From the IMG/VR virus record IMGVR_UViG_3300027754_000342, positions 1 through 27,970 of that record: DNA of 27,970 nucleotides; one strand, 5' to 3'. Both the position numbers and the translations under genes were made by a program. The DNA comes from a virus. Under the pieces are notes generated by a model that saw only the letters and a list, made by a program, of their open reading frames with translations, was not told where the DNA came from and ran no database searches. Within the stretch, counting starts at the first letter, position 1. The number at the start of each line of letters is the position of its first letter. Positions 6,530 to 20,300 of the stretch are shown here, piece after piece.

Positions 6530-6669
6530 AACCCACACCCATCACCTGCACCATATGCGGTTCATTGGCCGTAGAGTTTTTGGTGCTGTTTCAGTGCCGC
6601 CGTAATCCGCGCCACATTGCTGACCTTGCGCGGCGGGTGTGGTTTGAGTGCGCTAAAAAGGGGAACTAA
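6526..6669 (+). CDS. Putative 47-residue Cys-containing protein (TTG start)
   Basis: A short ORF starts with TTG in a TTGA overlap with the stop of the upstream gene and ends in a TAA that shares bases with the stop of the convergent glycosyltransferase. It contains CTICG, then FQCRRNPRHIADLARRVWFE followed by Cys, giving four Cys (residues 8, 11, 24, 42) in a pattern compatible with zinc binding. The exact fit between both neighbours is the main support. The rare start codon and small size keep it tentative. Confidence 0.4.
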   Translation: MKPTPITCTICGSLAVEFLVLFQCRRNPRHIADLARRVWFECAKKGN

Positions 6670-7394
6670 AGCTCCACCGGGAGCAGGGGCTTGGCGCGGG
6701 CATCAAGTTTGATGCGCCAGAAGTTTAGGTGGGATTCCATTTTTCCGGCAGGCGTATCATAATTGCAAGTTTCGTGGCGGGAGACGTGATCCTCACCAAT
6801 TCGATCCCAATGATACGACGGCGTGCCATGGTAAATACGAATGTCAAAATAGCTATTTGTGGAAATCCACGAATCAGATGCAACCAGCATGTCTGGTGGA
6901 AACAATTTGTAGATGTAATCCAATTCGGCTGGAGTCAGCCGTTCAAAGAGCGACACGGCCCATCCGTTGCATTTGATTAACTTCGTTCCGTCCTCGTAGT
7001 GGGCTGTGTAATTTTGCCCACAAACTTGAAGCGGGGAGTCGTTGCGCTCGTTCACGTTGTTCCATGCAGCAACCATTTGTGTAATGTGATGCGGATCAAT
7101 CCAGTCGTCGTCATCAAGGATCGTCCAGCAATCGGTGCGAACCATTTTCAGATTGGCAATGTGCTGATAAACTGGACGAACATAAATGTCCTCTTCGTTT
7201 ACAACCTCAATGCGGAGTCGGTGCGATTCTGGGACATTGAGCAAAAGCAGGGGAGTCGGATGGCGATTGATGATGAGCAAACGCGCCCAAGGATAGTCCT
7301 GTTCAATAAATGAGCGAACAGCATGGGCAATTGTTTTGCGTCCAATCGTTTCCATAATAATGGTCACGGTTGGATTTTTGATATGCTTTCTCAT
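6666..7394 (-). CDS. GT2-like glycosyltransferase
   Basis: The product is 242 residues with a GT-A fold signature. The N-terminal beta-alpha unit reads PTVTIIMETIGRKTIAHAVR, then SFIEQDYPWARLLII, and the metal/nucleotide-sugar motif follows at residues 91-98 (TILDDDDW, D94-D97). The C-terminal part has GEDHVSRHETCNY, which may supply the catalytic base. Family 2 enzymes transfer a sugar from a nucleotide donor, in the cytoplasm. The gene starts two bases after the stop of the collagen-like fibre gene, so the two are surely co-transcribed; the Thr-rich repeats of that fibre are a plausible acceptor. It could instead modify host surface glycans or DNA. Confidence 0.75.
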   Translation of the reverse strand: MRKHIKNPTVTIIMETIGRKTIAHAVRSFIEQDYPWARLLIINRHPTPLLLLNVPESHRLRIEVVNEEDIYVRPVYQHIANLKMVRTDCWTILDDDDWIDPHHITQMVAAWNNVNERNDSPLQVCGQNYTAHYEDGTKLIKCNGWAVSLFERLTPAELDYIYKLFPPDMLVASDSWISTNSYFDIRIYHGTPSYHWDRIGEDHVSRHETCNYDTPAGKMESHLNFWRIKLDARAKPLLPVEL

Positions 7395-7396
7395 CG

Positions 7397-8212
7397 TTAA
7401 AATCCCGAAGGTCCAGTTGGACCCGTGGGGCCAGTTGGTCCAGTAGGTCCAGTTGCTCCAGTTAGTCCAGGATCACCAGTAGCTCCAGTAGCGCCCGTAG
7501 CACCTGTTGCTCCAGTAGCGCCCGTGGCCCCCGTAGCTCCTGTTGCTCCAGTAGCACCCGTAGGTCCGGTGCCTGCTGTCCATGCCCAGTTTGGAACAAG
7601 ACCCCAAATAAGCGCACCAGTAGAATCCATTTTGCGAGCCTTTTGCAAATGGGTGTTGGTAAGCTGGTCAATACGAAGACTCGGCTTCAAGTCTGGAAAA
7701 TCCCCTTGATCGGGGAACGGCGCATATGGCATTGAATTAACCGTGCTTTTGCCAGTAAACACTGTTCTCACATAAGCAATGGGTTGCCTCCAAATGTTGC
7801 TTACACCAGCAGTATTGGTATACATTGAGTTTCCCCAACTTGCGCCATATTTAAGGATTGGGCCTGCGGTAATTGTTCCAGCAAAGTTAAATGTCATCTC
7901 AAGCCAAACCCAGTTACCGCTTGTTAGAGTCATCTTGCTATCAATTCCGGTAATAGCTGCGGTCAGCGTCAGGTTGCCTTCGTCCAAAAATATCCATCCA
8001 CGCCGCACATAAGCAAAAATAGAGGTTAGTGCGTCTGACGTAAATCCAGCACCATAAACCTCAAAAGGATGAAGTTTTAATTCCTCTGGTATATTGAGCG
8101 AATAATCTGGTTTGTTTCCAGAATAATCGGAAGAACCACCATAATTGGGTTCTGGAAGTCCGGCAGGAACAACCCGCCGAATTTGGTTTAACGTAGAGTC
8201 GAGTTCTTCCAT
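7397..8212 (-). CDS. Collagen-like tail-fibre/virion protein
   Basis: The product is 271 residues. About 215 residues are globular, with beta-rich segments such as [20 protein letters not shown] and [19 protein letters not shown]. They are followed by 18 uninterrupted Gly-X-Y triplets (GPT, nine [12 protein letters not shown], four GPT, GPS) and a terminal Gly-Phe. Such tracts form trimeric collagen-like stalks in phage fibres. Having the tract at the very C-terminus, with no receptor-binding head after it, is unusual. Its ATG overlaps the stop of the upstream gene as TAATG, and the glycosyltransferase gene follows directly. Confidence 0.75.
7406..7567 (-). repeat. Collagen-like Gly-X-Y coding repeat
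   Basis: Eighteen nine-base units encode Gly-X-Y with Thr at nearly every Y position. Synonymous variation between units (for example GTA, GTT and GTG as the complement of the Thr codon) shows this is not a recent perfect expansion, although the unit is short enough to vary by recombination. Confidence 0.9.
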
Positions 8213-11622: not shown

Positions 11623-14600
11623 ATGCCGCTTGCACCTGATTTTACTGGCAGCGCAATAGATCAGCCAACTCGGGCTGATTCATTGCCAGAACCAATTGCA
11701 GCGGATGTTATGCCGCAACCAATTGGGCAAGTGCCGCCTCCACCGCAACAACCTCCAATTTGGGATGACCTTCAAGTCGCCCTTAAAGACGTTGGTGATG
11801 AGGACAGGTCACACGCTGTAGAGGCATGGCGCGACAATGTTTCGCGTTATGGATACGAAAAAACAGCATGGTCACAGGATAACGAAGACGCGCTACAACG
11901 CTTTGCCGATGATGAGCAAAAAAAGATTGCCAGTGAGGTTAAGTTTGAGCGTGGTGACAAACTCTACAAACAGTTAGTAAATGATTTTGTTACTGATCCA
12001 ATGCGTCCAGGGGATGCTTTAGTGCAGGCGTATCGCGATGGCGTAATTGATAAGGCTGACAAAGAACAACTCAGAAGCGCATTTGAGATTCAAGATCAAA
12101 TGCGAATGCAATCTGAAGAACAACGTCTTGCTGGTGGCAATCAAAAATTAAAAGCTGTTGGAGTAGGTTTAGGAAGAGGAGCAGCATTTACGGCTGGAGC
12201 AATAGGAGGTGCAAAAGTTGCGTCTTTTGGAACGGCTCTTATTCCAGTAGTTGGTGAAACTGTTGTTGCTCCAATTGTTACAGGTTTAGTAGGCGGTGCA
12301 ATTGGCGGAACAATTGCTGCTGCTGGATACGATGAATTGGTGCAGTCTAATTTTGAAAGCGCAATGGCTGCTTCCAAATTAAATCCAAATTACACCACCG
12401 CTGGAGAACTTTTGTCATTTGTAATTCCTGGAATTGCTGGCTTAGCTAAAGGAGTAAAGCGGTTTGCGCTTGTTGCAGAAAATCTAGGTAGGAAAGAAGC
12501 GTTAAAACAAGCAGCAACTTATGTAGCGGTTAGTGGAGGCATTGGCGCAGCTTCAGCGCCAATTATGGGCGCTATAGATCGTTGGAAAAATGCTGCCCTT
12601 GATTTAGGCCATGGGCCTCAAGCTGATTTACTTGACCCAAAATCTATTGTAGCAAACACGGTGCTGGCAATTATGCTTGGTAACCTTGGCGTGAAGTTTA
12701 CCAAGTTTAACGCAGCAGAAGCGGCATCCATCCATCAGCGCGGCATGGCCGGACAAAAACTATCGCCCGCCGAGAGCGAGATGTTTAACACCATCAACCG
12801 AAAGATGGCGGAAAACCCAAACAGCTTTGTTTTTGATGCTGAACAGGCAACATTCCGCAATCCCAAGACTGGCGAGCAAATGCCAATGAGCGGTGCTGGA
12901 GCAGCGCGCACACAACGTAACCCTGCCCAGCCGCAGCAACCAGCGAGCGGACCCGGTGGTGGAGCGCCACCTCCAACTGGAGGCGCAGCACCTCCCCCTC
13001 AACAAGGAGCGCCCCCTCCTCAACAAGGCGCACCTCCACCGCAACCAAGGACCGCGCCACGCCGGTTCAACTCGCAACAGGAGTTTAACGATTTTATGGA
13101 CACCGCATTTACGAGCGGCGATGCTGCCGCTGGTGGCGAGGCGTGGAAAACAGCAAACGCACAGGGAAGGGCAAGATGGTTTGCGGCGTGGATGAAATCA
13201 AAGGTTACGGCATCCGGGCTGGAGGGAAGGGCCGGTCGCACCGAAGGAACAGGTGACGCCGCGACGTGGTTTGCAACTTCCGTTCTCCGTGGTAGCAGTA
13301 ATGCAGAACATGCAAAATTCGTCGTCGAACAACAGTCTGCCGCATCAGCTAAAGCCGCACCAAAAGCAAGCGCAGCGGCAGCGGCAAGCGCAAGCCCACC
13401 ACCTGTTGCTGGAGTCCCTGGAAGCCAGCAAGGAAGACCCGGAGGAGTTCCAAACGTTCCTCGCGGCGGTTCGCCCGTCGTTGCGCCGGAACCCACAGTT
13501 CCGGTAACGCAAACCCCAAAAACCACGGCGGCACTGGCGGGCACGGTCGTTACTTTACCGGTTACAACTGCGACTCTTGCTGTAAAGCCGACCATTGTTG
13601 CTCCTCTTGCCACACCACCTCTTGCCGTTGCGCCGGTTGTTGAACCCGCACCGGCAGCGGCGGCTGCGTCGGAAGTAGCTACACCCGTGCCAGCAGCACC
13701 TGCTCCGCAATCACCCGCGCCGACTCCATTGATGAACGAAGTCATGACCGAACTTCGGAACTGGAAGGATATAGGCAAAAATCCTACCGAAGATTACTTC
13801 AGTAACGTCGAGAGCATTCAAGCCGCACAAGAAAAGGTCGGTAAGCCAGTGTTTAAAGCTGCCTTAAAAGCATTTGTTCGCGACGTTGGCGTATCGGACG
13901 AAACATCTTGGGATTCGCTTACTGAGGAAGATGCGATCACCGAGTTTGCGGGTCTGCTTCACGGCAAATCTAAAATTGCAAAGCGTTACATCGATGCGGC
14001 AAAAAAGCAAATAGCAACCCCCGCAGCACCCGTAGCACAAGCACCCGCAGCGCAGGCGGCTGCGTCGGAAGTAGCTACACCCGTGCCAGCAGCACCCGCT
14101 CCGCAGTCACCCGCGCCGGTCGCTGGCAAGCCGGTGGAACAGATGACGCCGGAGGAGTTTGATTCGGCAGTTAGAACGCTAAATAAAAAGAAGACATCTG
14201 AAATGTCTCCTGCTGATCTTGAGCCATCGAAAAAGCTTATCGCAGTTCTTGACAATGTTACACAGCCTCCACCAAAAATGGGTGGACTTGGGCCGGACGA
14301 AATAACTCAGAAAATTTTGATTGATGCCGGGTATGTAGAGAAAGCCAAGGCTAAGAAAGGCAGGCTGACTGAAAAAGGTCGAAACGAGTTGAGTGAACTC
14401 AAGAAAGGCATTCGCTCGTTTGAATCCGAGCTATTTAATATCCAGGAAGAAATTGCATCTGATATACCCATCTCCGCATCCGCCGTAGACACTTACGGCA
14501 TTAAGTTGCCCGAAGGCTGGACTAAACAGGGCGAGCTTTACGTGCCGCCAGCTCCAGCGACATCGCCCGCTCCTGCAACACCCGCAGCACAGGCACCCGC

Positions 14601-17586
14601 AGCGCAGGCTGCTGCGCCGGAAGTAACCGCGCCAGCAGCAAAGGTTGGTGAGGCAACAAGTGCAGAGGCTTCGGCAAAGCAAGAAAAAGACCAGCGAAAT
14701 ATGTTTGATGAGGAGTTTCCGCCAGAAGGTTTCCGTTCCTTTGGCGGAATCAGCATGGATGAGATTTTTTCTGCTGCAAGTAAGCTTTATAAATCGGGCG
14801 TAGACTTTGCTCGTTGGGCAGCAAAGATGTTGAAAAAACTTGGTGAGAAAATTGCGCCTATTCTTAACAGGATTTGGAGGTCGCTTACAATGCAAGACAT
14901 TAAGCCGGAGTTTCGCGAAAGCGGGGCAATCTTTGGCGCTGGGCGTCGTCGTCGCGGAAGCCAACCCGACGCACTCCCGCAGGAGGAGCGGTTCATGACT
15001 ACGCAGGGTTTTTACGAAGGCAGTGCCGACGTGTTTCTAAAAAAGCCGTTGTTCAAGTTTCTTGGCAAGGCTATTAACAAACAGGTCGATCTGGCCGATA
15101 AACGGCTTGGCGACACAACTGGTAAACTTGAAGCATGGGAGTCGAGAACCATCAGTGCCGCGCAGAAAGAAGCCAAAGCTACACTGAGCGATTACATTGC
15201 AGCGCGTGAGGACGGCAGGACTGCGGAAGCTGCAAACATTTTGTCTGGCGCATCGCCTGCTGCTACCGACCTCATTAAAACCATTGGTGAAATTGCCAAA
15301 TACACCGGCAGGGTCAGCACCACGCTTATCCAGCCAAATGGCCGCGTCGGTGTGGAGGTTGTCGCCACAGGAGGTATCCGCAGTCTGGTCAACATGGGCG
15401 ACAAGTTTTGGCCGCGTATTCTTAAGGGAAATTACGATGCTGTGCTGCGCGATCCGTTGAGTGATCCAGTTATGTGGCAGGAAATGGTTGCTGATCTTAT
15501 TGCCAATGGCAACATCGCAACACCTGCCGAGGCGGAGCAATTTTTAAAGGGCGGCAGCAGCAATGACGCTGAAAGTGATTTTCTTGGAAGTCTTTACAAA
15601 GGCCGTGCTAAAGAACGTATGCCAGCTAAGTGGTATGACACAAGCCTAGAAGGATTTGAGAATTGGGCGGTAAAGTGGAGCGACATTGTTTCTAAAATTG
15701 AGGCGTTCGGTCAAAAGATCAGGCCGAATGACACCAACCAGTTTGATGAAGCCTTAAAGCTAACAACTTTTGCACCAACGCAATCTTTCATTAACTCCGT
15801 TGCTTCCCGCGCCTACAATGAGCGCAATGTCGGCACCGCTGCGAAGTATCTGCTCGACGCCCCGCGCCTGCTTGCCTCTGGTCTTTTTCTGACCAATCCC
15901 GTCACCATCGGCATCAACGCACTTTCCAGCAAGGTTATGAACACCTTCACCTATGGACTGTCGGCAAACTTTGCCCGCAACCCGCTGGCAATGTTCAGCA
16001 AAAAGAACAATCTTGACGCTTTCGCACTGGGCGTGTTAAAACGCGACATGGTGCGGCTGCTTTATCGGGATGATGTTCCAGGGCTGGATGCGCTCAAGAA
16101 CTTTGTCAATGGGGCCATGACGATCAGCGGATACGGTGTGGTGGAAAACTTGACCCGCGTGGACAGCTACCTAACGGCACTTGCTTTTCTGCACGACGGG
16201 CTGGCGGCGCACCGCCGCGCGCACGACAGCCGCGCCGCGATGCAGTTCACGGCGTTCCTTGAGCGCAACGGATACGACACCACCGCCATCGTCCGCGAGA
16301 ATGGCACCGGAGACGCCACCGACACCTTCCTGCGCGGCACCATCCGCGACACGCAAGGCGGCTACGCCTACAATCAGGTGCCGTGGTGGACCGACACGCC
16401 GCTTGGCCGGTTCTTGCTCCAGTTCACCAAGTTCTCCACAATGTTTCACCGCAATGTTATGCGGAACGTCATCAAACCGGCCTTCGTAGGAACGCGCGTC
16501 ACGGTGAAGGTCAACGGCAGGACCGTCACGAAGCGCGTCTTTAACGTGCTTCCGCTGCTTTATTTCCTGCTCGGCTCGGCACTCGGCGGTGAAGCAATCA
16601 GCTTCCTCAAGGATAAGGCGTTTGGAATCGAGCGCCGGGATGCCACGCTAAAGGAAATAGCCAACGAAATGAACGAGAGCACAAGGGACGGACTGGTGCT
16701 CATCGCAATCAGGGTAATCAACGACATGCTGACAATGGGGATGCTGGGCATCTTCGGCACACCCATTCAAAGCGTAAAGGATGTTAGTGAGCAGACCAAG
16801 ATGCGTAACCCCCTTTCTCCTCCTGGAGTGTCGCTGGCTACCAATGTAGGCGGATTGATTCAATCAGGATGGGAACAGGGCAAATTAACGCCAGAAGATG
16901 TTGGCGATTTCCTAAAAAGTTCTGTTTCCATGTATCGCTATGGCGATGCTTTTGTGAAAGAACAAAGCCAAAACGCAGGAATGGAATGGGAGTCCGCACA
17001 ACTAAAGTCACGCCGTGATGATGCGTCTTTTATTCGGGCCGCATCTAAACGCTACGCCGCAGAAGCAGGACTACCGCTAGGTCGAGCTACGTCCGCTGGC
17101 AGAACAGCCAAAAGCGAAACTACTCCAATGCGTAGAGACTTGATGGATTCATTGATGACAGGCAATGAGGTAGACGCCCGCAAGACGGTTACTGATTACC
17201 TTAGTGAGTTCCCTTCTATCGCAGAGAAAAAAGAAAAATTGCGCTCCCTTCAAGCTAGCGTTGCACAAAACCAACCAGTTAAAGTTGGCGGCATTGCAGG
17301 AAACGAGCGCCGTATTGAGTTTATGGTATGGGCAAAAAAGAATCTTTCCGTTACTGATGTTGCACGCATTGAAGCAGTAGATCAAAGCTATCGTAAGACA
17401 GCCAATGCTATTGGACTAATGACCGTGCCTACTGCATATCAAGATGAACGGCAAAGTTTAAAAACTGCGCGTGAGATAGAAAAGAAAGAAGTGAAGGCAA
17501 CGGAAGATGAAAACGCTGATTTTTTTGAACGCAATCTTAAACCGCAATACAAACGTAGAACTCAAGGGATGCGTCTTGGCCTATGA
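11623..17586 (+). CDS. Giant 1987-aa internal virion/ejection-type protein
   Basis: The regions in order are as follows. Residues 1-175 are hydrophilic and helical. Residues 180-236 are a Gly/Ala-rich hydrophobic segment of glycine-zipper type, with further hydrophobic stretches to about 360. Residues 420-1010 hold several Pro/Ala/Gln linkers separating small folded units. Residues 1043-1085 hold an amphipathic unit (EIFSAASKLYKSGVDFARWA, then AKMLKKLGEKIAPILNRIWR) that I associate with large phage polyvalent proteins. The C-terminal 900 residues are mostly helical, with hydrophobic stretches near 1406-1440 (RLLASGLFLTNPVTIGINAL) and 1640-1662 (LPLLYFLLGSALGG). No enzymatic motif is evident. 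Size, membrane-active segments and place suggest an ejected internal core protein; a tape measure is the alternative. Its TGA overlaps the terminase ATG. Confidence 0.6.
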   Translation: MPLAPDFTGSAIDQPTRADSLPEPIAADVMPQPIGQVPPPPQQPPIWDDLQVALKDVGDEDRSHAVEAWRDNVSRYGYEKTAWSQDNEDALQRFADDEQKKIASEVKFERGDKLYKQLVNDFVTDPMRPGDALVQAYRDGVIDKADKEQLRSAFEIQDQMRMQSEEQRLAGGNQKLKAVGVGLGRGAAFTAGAIGGAKVASFGTALIPVVGETVVAPIVTGLVGGAIGGTIAAAGYDELVQSNFESAMAASKLNPNYTTAGELLSFVIPGIAGLAKGVKRFALVAENLGRKEALKQAATYVAVSGGIGAASAPIMGAIDRWKNAALDLGHGPQADLLDPKSIVANTVLAIMLGNLGVKFTKFNAAEAASIHQRGMAGQKLSPAESEMFNTINRKMAENPNSFVFDAEQATFRNPKTGEQMPMSGAGAARTQRNPAQPQQPASGPGGGAPPPTGGAAPPPQQGAPPPQQGAPPPQPRTAPRRFNSQQEFNDFMDTAFTSGDAAAGGEAWKTANAQGRARWFAAWMKSKVTASGLEGRAGRTEGTGDAATWFATSVLRGSSNAEHAKFVVEQQSAASAKAAPKASAAAAASASPPPVAGVPGSQQGRPGGVPNVPRGGSPVVAPEPTVPVTQTPKTTAALAGTVVTLPVTTATLAVKPTIVAPLATPPLAVAPVVEPAPAAAAASEVATPVPAAPAPQSPAPTPLMNEVMTELRNWKDIGKNPTEDYFSNVESIQAAQEKVGKPVFKAALKAFVRDVGVSDETSWDSLTEEDAITEFAGLLHGKSKIAKRYIDAAKKQIATPAAPVAQAPAAQAAASEVATPVPAAPAPQSPAPVAGKPVEQMTPEEFDSAVRTLNKKKTSEMSPADLEPSKKLIAVLDNVTQPPPKMGGLGPDEITQKILIDAGYVEKAKAKKGRLTEKGRNELSELKKGIRSFESELFNIQEEIASDIPISASAVDTYGIKLPEGWTKQGELYVPPAPATSPAPATPAAQAPAAQAAAPEVTAPAAKVGEATSAEASAKQEKDQRNMFDEEFPPEGFRSFGGISMDEIFSAASKLYKSGVDFARWAAKMLKKLGEKIAPILNRIWRSLTMQDIKPEFRESGAIFGAGRRRRGSQPDALPQEERFMTTQGFYEGSADVFLKKPLFKFLGKAINKQVDLADKRLGDTTGKLEAWESRTISAAQKEAKATLSDYIAAREDGRTAEAANILSGASPAATDLIKTIGEIAKYTGRVSTTLIQPNGRVGVEVVATGGIRSLVNMGDKFWPRILKGNYDAVLRDPLSDPVMWQEMVADLIANGNIATPAEAEQFLKGGSSNDAESDFLGSLYKGRAKERMPAKWYDTSLEGFENWAVKWSDIVSKIEAFGQKIRPNDTNQFDEALKLTTFAPTQSFINSVASRAYNERNVGTAAKYLLDAPRLLASGLFLTNPVTIGINALSSKVMNTFTYGLSANFARNPLAMFSKKNNLDAFALGVLKRDMVRLLYRDDVPGLDALKNFVNGAMTISGYGVVENLTRVDSYLTALAFLHDGLAAHRRAHDSRAAMQFTAFLERNGYDTTAIVRENGTGDATDTFLRGTIRDTQGGYAYNQVPWWTDTPLGRFLLQFTKFSTMFHRNVMRNVIKPAFVGTRVTVKVNGRTVTKRVFNVLPLLYFLLGSALGGEAISFLKDKAFGIERRDATLKEIANEMNESTRDGLVLIAIRVINDMLTMGMLGIFGTPIQSVKDVSEQTKMRNPLSPPGVSLATNVGGLIQSGWEQGKLTPEDVGDFLKSSVSMYRYGDAFVKEQSQNAGMEWESAQLKSRRDDASFIRAASKRYAAEAGLPLGRATSAGRTAKSETTPMRRDLMDSLMTGNEVDARKTVTDYLSEFPSIAEKKEKLRSLQASVAQNQPVKVGGIAGNERRIEFMVWAKKNLSVTDVARIEAVDQSYRKTANAIGLMTVPTAYQDERQSLKTAREIEKKEVKATEDENADFFERNLKPQYKRRTQGMRLGL
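13660..14117 (+). repeat. 62-bp direct repeats in an Ala/Pro linker
   Basis: Nearly identical 62-base segments at 13660-13721 and 14056-14117 differ at two positions and both encode AAASEVATPVPAAPAPQSPA. A third, decayed version lies near 14605. They mark duplication of a flexible linker between folded units of the giant protein and could recombine to change its domain content. Confidence 0.85.
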
Positions 17587-20300
17587 CAGCTAAAGCCAAG
17601 CCCGCGCCGCGCATTAGTTACGACAACTTTGCGCTGCCTTCCGGTTACGAACCGTGGCATCTGTGTTTGACTAAGTTTGGACTTGGTAAAGGCGAGGAAA
17701 AACTGAAATGGTTTAAGCGTCTTGTTACTGAGCTTTGGCCGGAACCGTTATTTATGTGGGACAGGTGGAGCGACCTGTTCTTTGGCGCGTTGTGCGGTGC
17801 GAAAGAAACTGTTGAGCGAACTACTGGCGAAAAGATTGAATCCGATTATCCGTGGTGGGAGCAATTAACAGCTACAGGAGCGGCGGGATGTATTGACGCC
17901 AACACACGGATACTTGATCCAACTACCGGGGAATCCCCTACCGTCGAACAACGTTACAAAAGCAAAAAGCCGTCGTGGGTAATGACACTTGGAGGTCCGA
18001 TTCTGGCGGACGTTCCGTTCATAAAAGGAACGGCAGAACTATTTGAGGTTCTATTGGATGACGGATCAAAATTTACCGCCACGGCAAATCATCGAGTTCT
18101 TACGCCGGATGGATACAGGTTTGTTTCCGAGCTTTCCGTCGGTTCAACGCTGACAGGATACGCGCTTTCCCATCCTCAGACCACTTTGGGCATTGCCCCT
18201 TTAGTTCAGAACGAAGATGCGCGCCATTGCTTGAGTAAAGCTCAAGATTCTCAATCCGATTATCGTCCTTCTTTTTGTTCCGGTGATGAACCACCTCTGT
18301 TTTCAAAAGCGGTCGGCCAATGTGATTTGACATTACCAATCGGTGCTCAAGAACATATCTCTTCCTCATCCTTGTCGCCATCGGATGACCCGGAATGTAA
18401 AGCAGAACGTAGCCATCCTCATCAATCACGCGGCCACCATTCCATGTGGAGCACCGCTCACCCTTCCACGCAGTTGGAAAAGTCCTTGTCTCTCCATTCC
18501 TGCGAAGAAATAGAGATACACGAGTGTGTGTTGTCCCAATCGTCTTGCCAATCTGGTTCAGAGAACAACCTTTTGCGTTCATCTCAAAAACAAGAGTGCG
18601 ATTCTTTTCACAGGCACCAAGCGGGCCATGTCGAGGAGCAGGAATTTCATTCATGGGCTGACTATACGGTGCAGCGGAGACTGGTGCAAGCGATAACGGG
18701 TGTTGGAAGCAGAATTTATTACGATCTGACAGTGCCGGAGCAGCACCACTATTTTGCGGAGGGTGCCATTCATCACAACACTGGCAAAAGTTCTAGGGCC
18801 GCGTTGTGGATTCTTTGCAACTGGCTATGCGCCCGCGAGCATACAACCTGCATGTTGACCTCAACTAGCGTCACTGCGCTTAAGCAGCGTATTTGGAGCG
18901 AACTGGTGGACTGGATACAGAAGTGTAAACAGCCATTGTCCGACCCCACGATTGGCTGGCTACAAATTGTGCCATCCGACACCATTATTCGGTGGAGCGG
19001 TGAGGATACGAAAAGCGCAATCTTTGGGCGTGCAGTCGATCAAGGAGGTTCTGTGGACAACGCGGTTGGGCGTATCAAGGGTATTCACAATCGTCGCGTG
19101 TTTGTTGTGACGGATGAGATGACGGCTATGCCCGAGGCTATTGCCAAGGCGTGTCGCAACTTGGATTCCGGCACAATGGAGTTTCAATTTATTGGGCTAG
19201 GCAACGCCACTGACTATTCTGACCAGCATGGTATTTATTGTGAGCCGGTGGACGGCTGGAACAGTGTTACGGTTAATGACGAGTTCTGGCTGACCAAGCT
19301 GGGCGGTTGTTGCGTGCATTTGGATGGGCACAAATCGCCATCATTGGATAATCCGGCCAAGTATCACTTTTACATCGGACGCAAGAAGCTGGAAAAGGAT
19401 GCGCGCTTCTTTGGTGGCGAGAACACCCCTGACTATTGGCGCGAGTGCCGAGGCTTTTGGGCACCGTCTGGATTGTCCACAACGGTCATGGATGCGTTCT
19501 TGCTATCACAATTCAATACCGCTGACAAAGCTGTGTGGAAGGCTCGCTGGGAGATGGGCGCTGGCTTTGACGTAGCGTTTGAGGGCGGCGACAGGCGCGT
19601 GCTTTATCCGTTCAAGTTTGGCGAGTTTGCCAGCGGCGTTAAAGGCATTGAGTTTCAAGCTCCGGTCATTGTGAACATCGACATGACGCAGGACAAACGC
19701 TTCATCCACTACGGCATTGCTGCTGCTGTAGAAGAGACATGCCGTAACTACAAGATTGACGGCAAGTCGCATCCAATCCTGCCTCACAACTTGGCGTGTG
19801 ACGTAACAGGCGAGGGTGCCGGTCCGTTTGGCATTATGTCTGGAAGCTGGTCACGCGACATTATTCCCGTGGAGTTCGGTGGTGCAGCGGAAAAGACGGC
19901 GGTATCCGCAGACCGACCAACAACGTGGCATGAGCTTTACGGAAACAAAGTGACAGAAATCTGGTATTCAATGCGTCGATTTATTGAAGGCGGACAGGTG
20001 AGAGGGCTTACCGACGCCGACACAATACGCGAGTTGACTTCCCGCGATTACGTCCGTAAGAACAACAAGACCCATGTGCTGCCTAAGAGCGAGATGAAGA
20101 AGCTCAAGTCCCGCAGTCCCGATTTGGCAGATGCAGCCTGCATTGCTGCCTTTGTGCTTCGCAAGAAGGGAATTATGCCAGCAAGCGTAGCGGACAATGT
20201 GGTGATAGATTCAACCGCTTGGAACGCGGCTGCTGAGAAAATGAACATGGAAGGAAACGAATCAGACTACGAAGATTCAAATTCAGCTTTTGCAATATGA
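17583..20300 (+). CDS. terL: Terminase large subunit precursor, interrupted by an intein
   Basis: The precursor is 905 residues; removing intein residues 103-399 leaves a 608-residue terminase, a normal size. The spliced Walker A loop reads GAAGTGKSS. Walker B is VFVVTDE (D511, E512, precursor numbering), followed by a coupling motif FIGLGNAT. The C-terminal nuclease carries acidic residues in AGFDVAFEGGDR (D663), LACDVTGEGAG (D740) and SPDLADAA (D847, D850). The enzyme powers DNA translocation into procapsids and cuts concatemers, docked on the portal encoded downstream. ATGA overlaps at both ends (17583 and 20297) show coupling. Since the intein splits the ATP-binding loop, packaging activity should depend on protein splicing. 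A reverse-strand endonuclease gene lies within the intein. Confidence 0.93.
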   Translation: MTAKAKPAPRISYDNFALPSGYEPWHLCLTKFGLGKGEEKLKWFKRLVTELWPEPLFMWDRWSDLFFGALCGAKETVERTTGEKIESDYPWWEQLTATGAAGCIDANTRILDPTTGESPTVEQRYKSKKPSWVMTLGGPILADVPFIKGTAELFEVLLDDGSKFTATANHRVLTPDGYRFVSELSVGSTLTGYALSHPQTTLGIAPLVQNEDARHCLSKAQDSQSDYRPSFCSGDEPPLFSKAVGQCDLTLPIGAQEHISSSSLSPSDDPECKAERSHPHQSRGHHSMWSTAHPSTQLEKSLSLHSCEEIEIHECVLSQSSCQSGSENNLLRSSQKQECDSFHRHQAGHVEEQEFHSWADYTVQRRLVQAITGVGSRIYYDLTVPEQHHYFAEGAIHHNTGKSSRAALWILCNWLCAREHTTCMLTSTSVTALKQRIWSELVDWIQKCKQPLSDPTIGWLQIVPSDTIIRWSGEDTKSAIFGRAVDQGGSVDNAVGRIKGIHNRRVFVVTDEMTAMPEAIAKACRNLDSGTMEFQFIGLGNATDYSDQHGIYCEPVDGWNSVTVNDEFWLTKLGGCCVHLDGHKSPSLDNPAKYHFYIGRKKLEKDARFFGGENTPDYWRECRGFWAPSGLSTTVMDAFLLSQFNTADKAVWKARWEMGAGFDVAFEGGDRRVLYPFKFGEFASGVKGIEFQAPVIVNIDMTQDKRFIHYGIAAAVEETCRNYKIDGKSHPILPHNLACDVTGEGAGPFGIMSGSWSRDIIPVEFGGAAEKTAVSADRPTTWHELYGNKVTEIWYSMRRFIEGGQVRGLTDADTIRELTSRDYVRKNNKTHVLPKSEMKKLKSRSPDLADAACIAAFVLRKKGIMPASVADNVVIDSTAWNAAAEKMNMEGNESDYEDSNSAFAI
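18100..18654 (-). CDS. HNH homing endonuclease encoded antisense inside the intein
   Basis: The product is a complete 184-residue protein. Residues 20-53 form a helix-turn-helix (FEMNAKGCSLNQIGKTIGTT, then HTRVSLFLRRNG). Residues 71-90 read WNGGRVIDEDGYVLLYIPGH, the strand pair that precedes the nuclease in this family. The HNH core spans 102-139: LEHRLVMSNHIGRPLLKTEV, then VHHRNKKKDDNRIENLEL with H123/H124, N126, N132 and N136. Both this layout and the DNR-x-x-NL-x-L ending are typical of phage HNH (HNH_3-type) endonucleases that cut DNA to drive homing. The ORF begins and ends between intein blocks B and F. It is on the opposite strand from all surrounding late genes and so needs its own transcript; a candidate promoter lies just upstream. 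The catalytic residues appear intact. Confidence 0.85.
   Translation of the reverse strand: MNEIPAPRHGPLGACEKNRTLVFEMNAKGCSLNQIGKTIGTTHTRVSLFLRRNGETRTFPTAWKGERCSTWNGGRVIDEDGYVLLYIPGHPMATRMRKRYVLEHRLVMSNHIGRPLLKTEVVHHRNKKKDDNRIENLELYSSNGAHLRSELKGQCPKWSEDGKARILSALNRRKARKQTCIHPA
18661..18689 (-). promoter_or_regulatory. Candidate antisense promoter for the HNH gene
   Basis: Read on the minus strand, TTGCAC (18684-18689) and TATAGT (18661-18666) are 17 bases apart. The -10 matches five of six consensus bases, the -35 only three. The ATG at 18654 is six bases beyond the -10, so a transcript would be leaderless or nearly so. The same bases encode intein residues (DYTVQRRLVQ) on the sense strand. 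Confidence 0.3.

Follow-up and report, generated by a model that had tools for sequence, protein, structure and literature searches.

An intein in a phage large terminase with an HNH endonuclease gene on its opposite strand, and related inteins in other tailed phages

The DNA that we analyzed (the window, meaning the whole stretch) is a virus record of 27,970 bases. It encodes a large terminase (TerL) precursor in a single open frame that runs through an intein, and the strand opposite the linker of this intein encodes an HNH endonuclease (Table 1). The intein corresponds to residues 103 to 399 of the precursor and carries all of the splicing motifs: Cys1, block B TxxH, block F, the terminal His-Asn, and a +1 Thr. 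Its insertion point is in the Walker A motif (ATGAAG/TGKSS, with the slash marking the site), between the first G and TGKSS. In intein-free terminases from viral contigs whose C-exteins are 96 to 100% identical to that of the window, TGAAG is joined directly to TGKSS, which places the intein inside Walker A with exact borders.

Table 1. Features of the terminase intein locus, in window coordinates
Feature	Position	Strand	Basis or remarks
Large terminase (TerL) precursor, 905 aa	17583-20300	+	Single open frame; homologues without the intein align across the site; PHROG 17415 terminase match
N-extein and C-extein of TerL	17583-17888; 18780-20297	+	
Intein, 297 aa; first residue Cys (17889), last residues His-Asn (to 18779); +1 Thr	17889-18779	+	
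N-terminal Hint half; Cys1 (17889); block B TANH (18081-18101)	17889-18173	+	AlphaFold2 pLDDT 88-96; motifs; sense dN/dS 0.04
C-terminal Hint half; block F YYDLTVPEQHHYF (18717-18755); block G AIHHN (18765-18779)	18660-18779	+	AlphaFold2 pLDDT 84-97; motifs; sense dN/dS 0.12
Sense linker joining the Hint halves	18103-18657	+	Stop-free, unconserved, predicted disordered
Antisense HTH and HNH_3 endonuclease gene, 184 aa; ATG at 18654, stop at 18102-18100	18100-18654	-	
Helix-turn-helix-like part, HNH residues 13-52	18499-18618	-	Helices in model; weak Pfam HTH_38; HTH_23 in relatives
HNH_3 catalytic domain, residues 104-142; HR, VVHH, DDNR..N	18229-18345	-	Pfam E 1.6e-8; pLDDT 92-97
Putative HNH gene promoter (weak), TTGCAC-17-TATAGT, 6 nt upstream of ATG	18661-18689	-	Comparative scan

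In HMM searches of both strands, intein profiles matched the sense strand and HNH_3 matched the antisense strand. The isolated intein matched the Pfam Intein_splicing profile with an E value of 7.5e-7 (29.5 bits, below the curated cutoff of 35.8) and the NCBIfam N-terminal and C-terminal intein models with E values of 3.4e-4 and 5.1e-4, respectively; NCBIfam profiles of intein-bearing proteins also matched. No endonuclease family was found in the sense frame of the intein in Pfam and NCBIfam profile searches. A previous reading of this DNA, made from the letters alone (the sequence-only reading), had claimed complete splicing blocks with no endonuclease in the same frame, and these claims were borne out, as were its coordinates for the intein and the antisense open reading frame (ORF). 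We rejected a large intein with an in-frame homing endonuclease domain, since the HNH is on the minus strand and the sense frame lacks a nuclease. We conclude that the insert is an intein, on the basis of its motifs, its Hint fold, and its in-frame insertion at a conserved site with insert-free homologues. The motifs, together with the purifying selection described below, are consistent with autocatalytic splicing.

Two other features of the window were recorded upstream of terL. Positions 11623-17586 hold a 1,987-aa ORF with Ala/Pro-rich stretches and no PHROG match at an E value of <0.04, and at 7397-8212 and 6666-7394 (-) a collagen-repeat tail-fibre-like protein adjoins a glycosyltransferase-like gene. 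The DNA just 5′ of terL (upstream of 17583) varies between contigs with nearly identical terminases (the window and L006-L028), which suggests a recombination boundary at the start of terL.

The antisense ORF starts ahead of block F and ends where block B does. It matched Pfam HNH_3 above the gathering score (E value, 1.6e-8) and PHROG HNH families with E values down to 4.4e-24, and its core (HRLVM...VVHH...DDNR..N) is intact, in agreement with the sequence-only reading. HNH_3 was matched by 24 of 24 aligned family members. The same reading had assigned a helix-turn-helix to this protein; helices in the predicted model and HTH_23 matches in three relatives (3e-4) are compatible with that assignment, but the window copy itself matched HTH_38 at only 0.07. 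AlphaFold2 gave the antisense protein a mean pLDDT of 80, with values of 92 to 97 in the HNH core, and placed helices at the N terminus. For the sense intein, pLDDT was mostly 90 to 97 in the Hint halves and 30 to 50 in the linker. The best Foldseek matches of the intein model were the DnaB and RecA mini-inteins (E value, about 1e-7). A Foldseek search of the PDB with the HNH model gave no significant match; I-HmuI (1u3e) was matched by the HNH profile at 3e-4, with low significance.

The sequence-only reading concerned a single locus. The arrangement turned out to be a widespread family that includes named phages. The first member found by HNH search (L004) is a Terminase_3 protein with an intein (E value, 2.6e-13), whose antisense HNH is 41% identical to that of the window. 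Further scans yielded a large set in which the frame opposite the HNH is an open precursor with Hint ends, and by our own count about 46 viral contigs carry the design. The HNH lies inside the intein at all loci where both borders could be placed, and HNH codon position 1 is opposite sense position 1 in every locus measured, giving one codon phase. Host genes encode Terminase_3, Terminase_6-type, and unassigned terminase-like proteins and, in one case, a DNA polymerase clamp loader (L086; PHROG match, 5e-54; insertion at GPSG/CGKTT; three intein-free homologues). Thus, antisense-HNH inteins recur in several host genes. At two loci (L046 and L073) they are inserted after the GK of the P-loop (GK/T), not after the G. 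A quick tree grouped the antisense HNHs together against free-standing relatives (one change; support, 63), and a single origin is possible on this basis. Searches for antisense HNH relatives gave no confirmed match in the genome_contigs collection and, with one query, only four partial HNH matches in plasmids. Two further candidates, an HNH beside capsid genes (L108) and an HNH in a methylase gene (L110), were rejected as same-strand genes with no antisense intein.

A tblastn search of the phage collection with the window TerL gave no match, so named phages were found through the HNH proteins of other family members. Nine named phage genomes matched the design. Eight are Ymer-type Pectobacterium/Dickeya phages (Ymer, Abuela, Koroua, Amona, Sabo, Taid, Pappous, and Dickeya phage Setonix), with matches to both the terminase and the antisense HNH, and the ninth is Pseudoalteromonas phage PHS3. 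In Ymer and Taid, the two of the eight that were inspected in full, the intein is present and the HNH is intact. Both exteins are matched by Klebsiella phage terminases, which have no insert.

We surveyed alleles independently of the HNH by searching with the terminase C-exteins of two families. A total of 151 alleles were classified, of which 23 bear an intein and 128 are empty. Among the intein-bearing terminases, found here through terminase sequence, 21 of 23 have the antisense HNH (E value, <1e-30). The other two are mini-inteins of 136 and 132 aa (L192 and L233, respectively, in terminase relatives of L036) that occupy the same Walker A site, have no HNH, and are apparently the nuclease-free state of the same element. 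The inteins of L233 and of an HNH-bearing allele, L264, are related, and what sets them apart is the HNH segment, which lies between blocks B and F. A homing cycle would be expected to leave alleles of all three kinds: empty, with a nuclease, and with a nuclease-free intein. A third survey, seeded with a Terminase_3 protein (L083), gave 79 empty alleles, 1 truncated allele, and no intein among the best 80 matches.

Two relatives carry the same intein as the window: L005 (98% HNH identity; contig shared with L002 and L032) and L015 (89%; contig shared with L003 and L033). The HNH is intact in all three intein-bearing alleles of this terminase, and all three inteins are 891 nucleotides (nt) long with no indels. 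Between the window and L005, the inteins differ at 8 of 891 sites and the exteins at 97 of 1,824 (Fisher P value, 9e-10), and the zone of low difference coincides with the intein. In several contigs that lack the intein (L006-L008), the C-extein is closer to that of the window than the L005 C-extein is. From the contrast between intein and exteins, and from these closer empty contigs, we conclude that the window intein was exchanged recently.

Some phage HNH proteins encoded beside terminase genes have been reported to function in DNA packaging, and the host genes in this family are mostly terminases, as would be expected if the HNH served packaging or another terminase-linked phage function rather than homing. 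We consider this improbable in view of the HNH in the clamp loader, the 128 of 151 classified related terminase alleles that do without an HNH, and the recent transfer of the intein. It is also quite unlikely that the intein owed its movement to ordinary recombination or to a nuclease gene at another location, with the antisense HNH as an independent parasite in the linker. Separate nucleases are known to assist the homing of introns and split inteins, and the mini-inteins at the same site would fit such a history. Against it, in all families the HNH lies between blocks B and F, where an intein endonuclease usually sits, in constant phase, and it is maintained by selection.

Evidence for selection came from the codon positions at which the window and L015 differ. 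Counted at sense positions 1/2/3, the N-terminal Hint half has 6/3/32 substitutions, the HNH segment 17/44/9, and the C-terminal Hint half 0/6/15; wobble positions of the HNH take 44 of the 70 substitutions in the HNH segment. Hence, protein-level selection passes from one strand to the other at the HNH ORF. For the HNH segment, dN/dS was 0.15 in the HNH frame versus 3.0 in the sense frame, and sense values for the Hint halves were 0.04 (N-terminal) and 0.12 (C-terminal); these pairwise estimates are simple and take no account of the overlap, of which the codon-position counts are independent. Across families, 68 pairs with HNH identities of 55 to 97% had dN/dS values of 0.07 to 0.46 in the HNH frame and 0.5 to 3.5 in the sense frame, dN/dS not being computable for pairs with saturated synonymous sites.

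We also compared observed sense-frame stops with the number expected from synonymous codon shuffling within each HNH ORF. In 20 of 20 representatives, 0 stops were seen versus 4.5 to 10 expected, and the other opposite frame that shuffling can change had about the expected number. Free-standing HNH relatives mostly have the expected stops in the opposite frame, and the negative controls (L048-L063, L066-L071, and L095-L105) are HNH relatives mostly lacking an open opposite frame. The lack of stops, together with the unconserved residues, indicates that the sense frame is kept open, as if translated merely to span the Hint halves. The sole exception, L078 (3867-4805), has an intact HNH and a TAA stop in the sense linker at intein codon 235; unless this stop is a sequencing error or is read through, TerL would be cut short. 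We conclude that the HNH frame is under purifying selection and that stops in the sense linker are selected against. The sequence-only reading had named a routinely broken antisense ORF opposite a conserved linker as the contrary outcome; we found the opposite, a conserved antisense ORF and an unconserved linker.

At the window antisense start, a sigma-70 consensus scan gave nothing above threshold, and there is no Shine-Dalgarno (SD) sequence. Across the family, promoter-like scores 5′ of antisense starts averaged 8.8, compared to 7.1 in control windows of the same contigs, with a P value of 2e-10 that overstates independence because the compared loci are related. Scores of ≥9.5 occurred at 43% of antisense starts versus 1.3% of controls, and SD matches of ≥5 bases at 33% versus 2%. 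Two patterns were seen, one with a -10-like hexamer 6 to 8 nt before the ATG (leaderless, mostly with no SD) and the other with a -10-like hexamer 31 to 40 nt before the ATG, with an SD in some cases. PHS3 has TTGACA-17-GATAAT 31 nt from the HNH ATG, and the clamp loader locus has TATAAT and AAGGAG ahead of its own HNH ATG. Some -35-like hexamers overlap conserved sense codons, so these signals are supporting evidence rather than proof.

The weakness of the promoter-like site in the window is what a chance or relic antisense frame, unexpressed and opposite the linker of a mini-intein, might show. Such a frame would have to account for the strong HNH profile matches, for purifying selection on the HNH frame in every family tested, and for an intact HNH in 21 of the 23 intein alleles found without using the HNH, which makes it very improbable. 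Antisense homing endonuclease genes (HEGs) are known in nuclear group I introns (PMC9548176), but a group I or II intron in place of an intein is exceedingly unlikely here, since translation runs in frame through the insert without meeting a stop, its complete Hint motifs are under purifying selection, and an Rfam scan at E values up to 1 found no intron family.

The anatomy of the locus, the empty and mini-intein alleles, and the recent transfer all come directly from the computation. We put at about 86% the probability that the element is a mobile tailed-phage intein with its homing endonuclease gene antisense in the linker between the Hint halves. The TerL precursor would be made by translating the sense strand straight through the insert, and the Hint domain would then excise itself together with the disordered linker and restore Walker A, as the intact motifs and purifying selection suggest. 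A separate antisense mRNA, probably from a promoter inside the C-terminal Hint DNA, would encode a free-standing HTH-HNH nuclease. We infer that this nuclease acts in homing, cutting or nicking intein-free terL near the insertion point so that repair copies the intein in. The shared segment is doubly constrained, its HNH codons by protein sequence and its sense codons by the need to stay stop-free. We think it likely that antisense-nuclease inteins are a separate, widespread class in tailed phages, with a single codon phase and their own internal promoter (giving a leaderless or SD-led mRNA), that they have spread to a clamp loader as well as several terminase families, and that their nuclease expression is uncoupled from the host gene and from splicing.

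The sequence-only reading knew of no described intein with an antisense nuclease, and likewise we found none in the open-access full-text literature, a scope within which a negative does not prove absence. The arrangement apparently has not been described before. Canonical large inteins (LAGLIDADG or HNH) share with it the Hint domain, an endonuclease between blocks B and F, and mobility in a conserved active-site motif; here, in contrast, the nuclease is a separate protein from the opposite strand, and the sense linker is unconserved and predicted to be disordered. Split inteins of fractured genes have a separate nuclease gene between the halves, and the intein is made as two polypeptides. 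They are alike in that the nuclease is a separate protein from within the intein locus, whereas the precursor described here is one continuous ORF, overlapped by the nuclease gene on the other strand. Nuclear group I introns such as that of I-DsqI also combine a splicing element with an HEG on the antisense strand, for which expression and cleavage have been shown (Lian et al. 2022, PMC9548176). However, they splice as RNA, their nuclease is of the His-Cys type, and the HEG lies in a peripheral RNA loop, where the other strand need not stay open as protein. ShiLan-type insertions in phage methylases have an out-of-frame HNH within an insertion through which the host frame stays open; a splicing domain was not detected in them, and translation from the same-strand host gene transcript was proposed (Arsenault et al. 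2025, PMC11855218). We rejected a hidden insertion of this type, since the HNH here is on the opposite strand and the Hint domain is complete.

GenBank annotation hides such inteins, as PHS3 and Ymer illustrate. The PHS3 record (KX912252.1, 1158-3284) has a shortened terminase and a separate opposite-strand HNH gene where the terminase frame is continuous over 708 aa, and the Ymer record (OP748252.2, 2077-4341) has a "hypothetical protein" where TerL lies. The main text of the paper on the Ymer genus mentions neither an intein nor an HNH. Such elements may have been counted as nuclease-free inteins in surveys limited to the sense frame.

The usual description of an intein is a splicing domain to which an in-frame nuclease may be added; here, the splicing domain and the nuclease are encoded on opposite strands of the same DNA. 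The nuclease would be freed from the splicing reaction and could be made while the host gene is off, and its timing may be independent of late transcription, as the sequence-only reading proposed. In addition, the locus is a clean example from nature of two protein genes that overlap in antisense, in which selection can be measured in both frames, and the timing and regulation of intein homing become testable in named phages.
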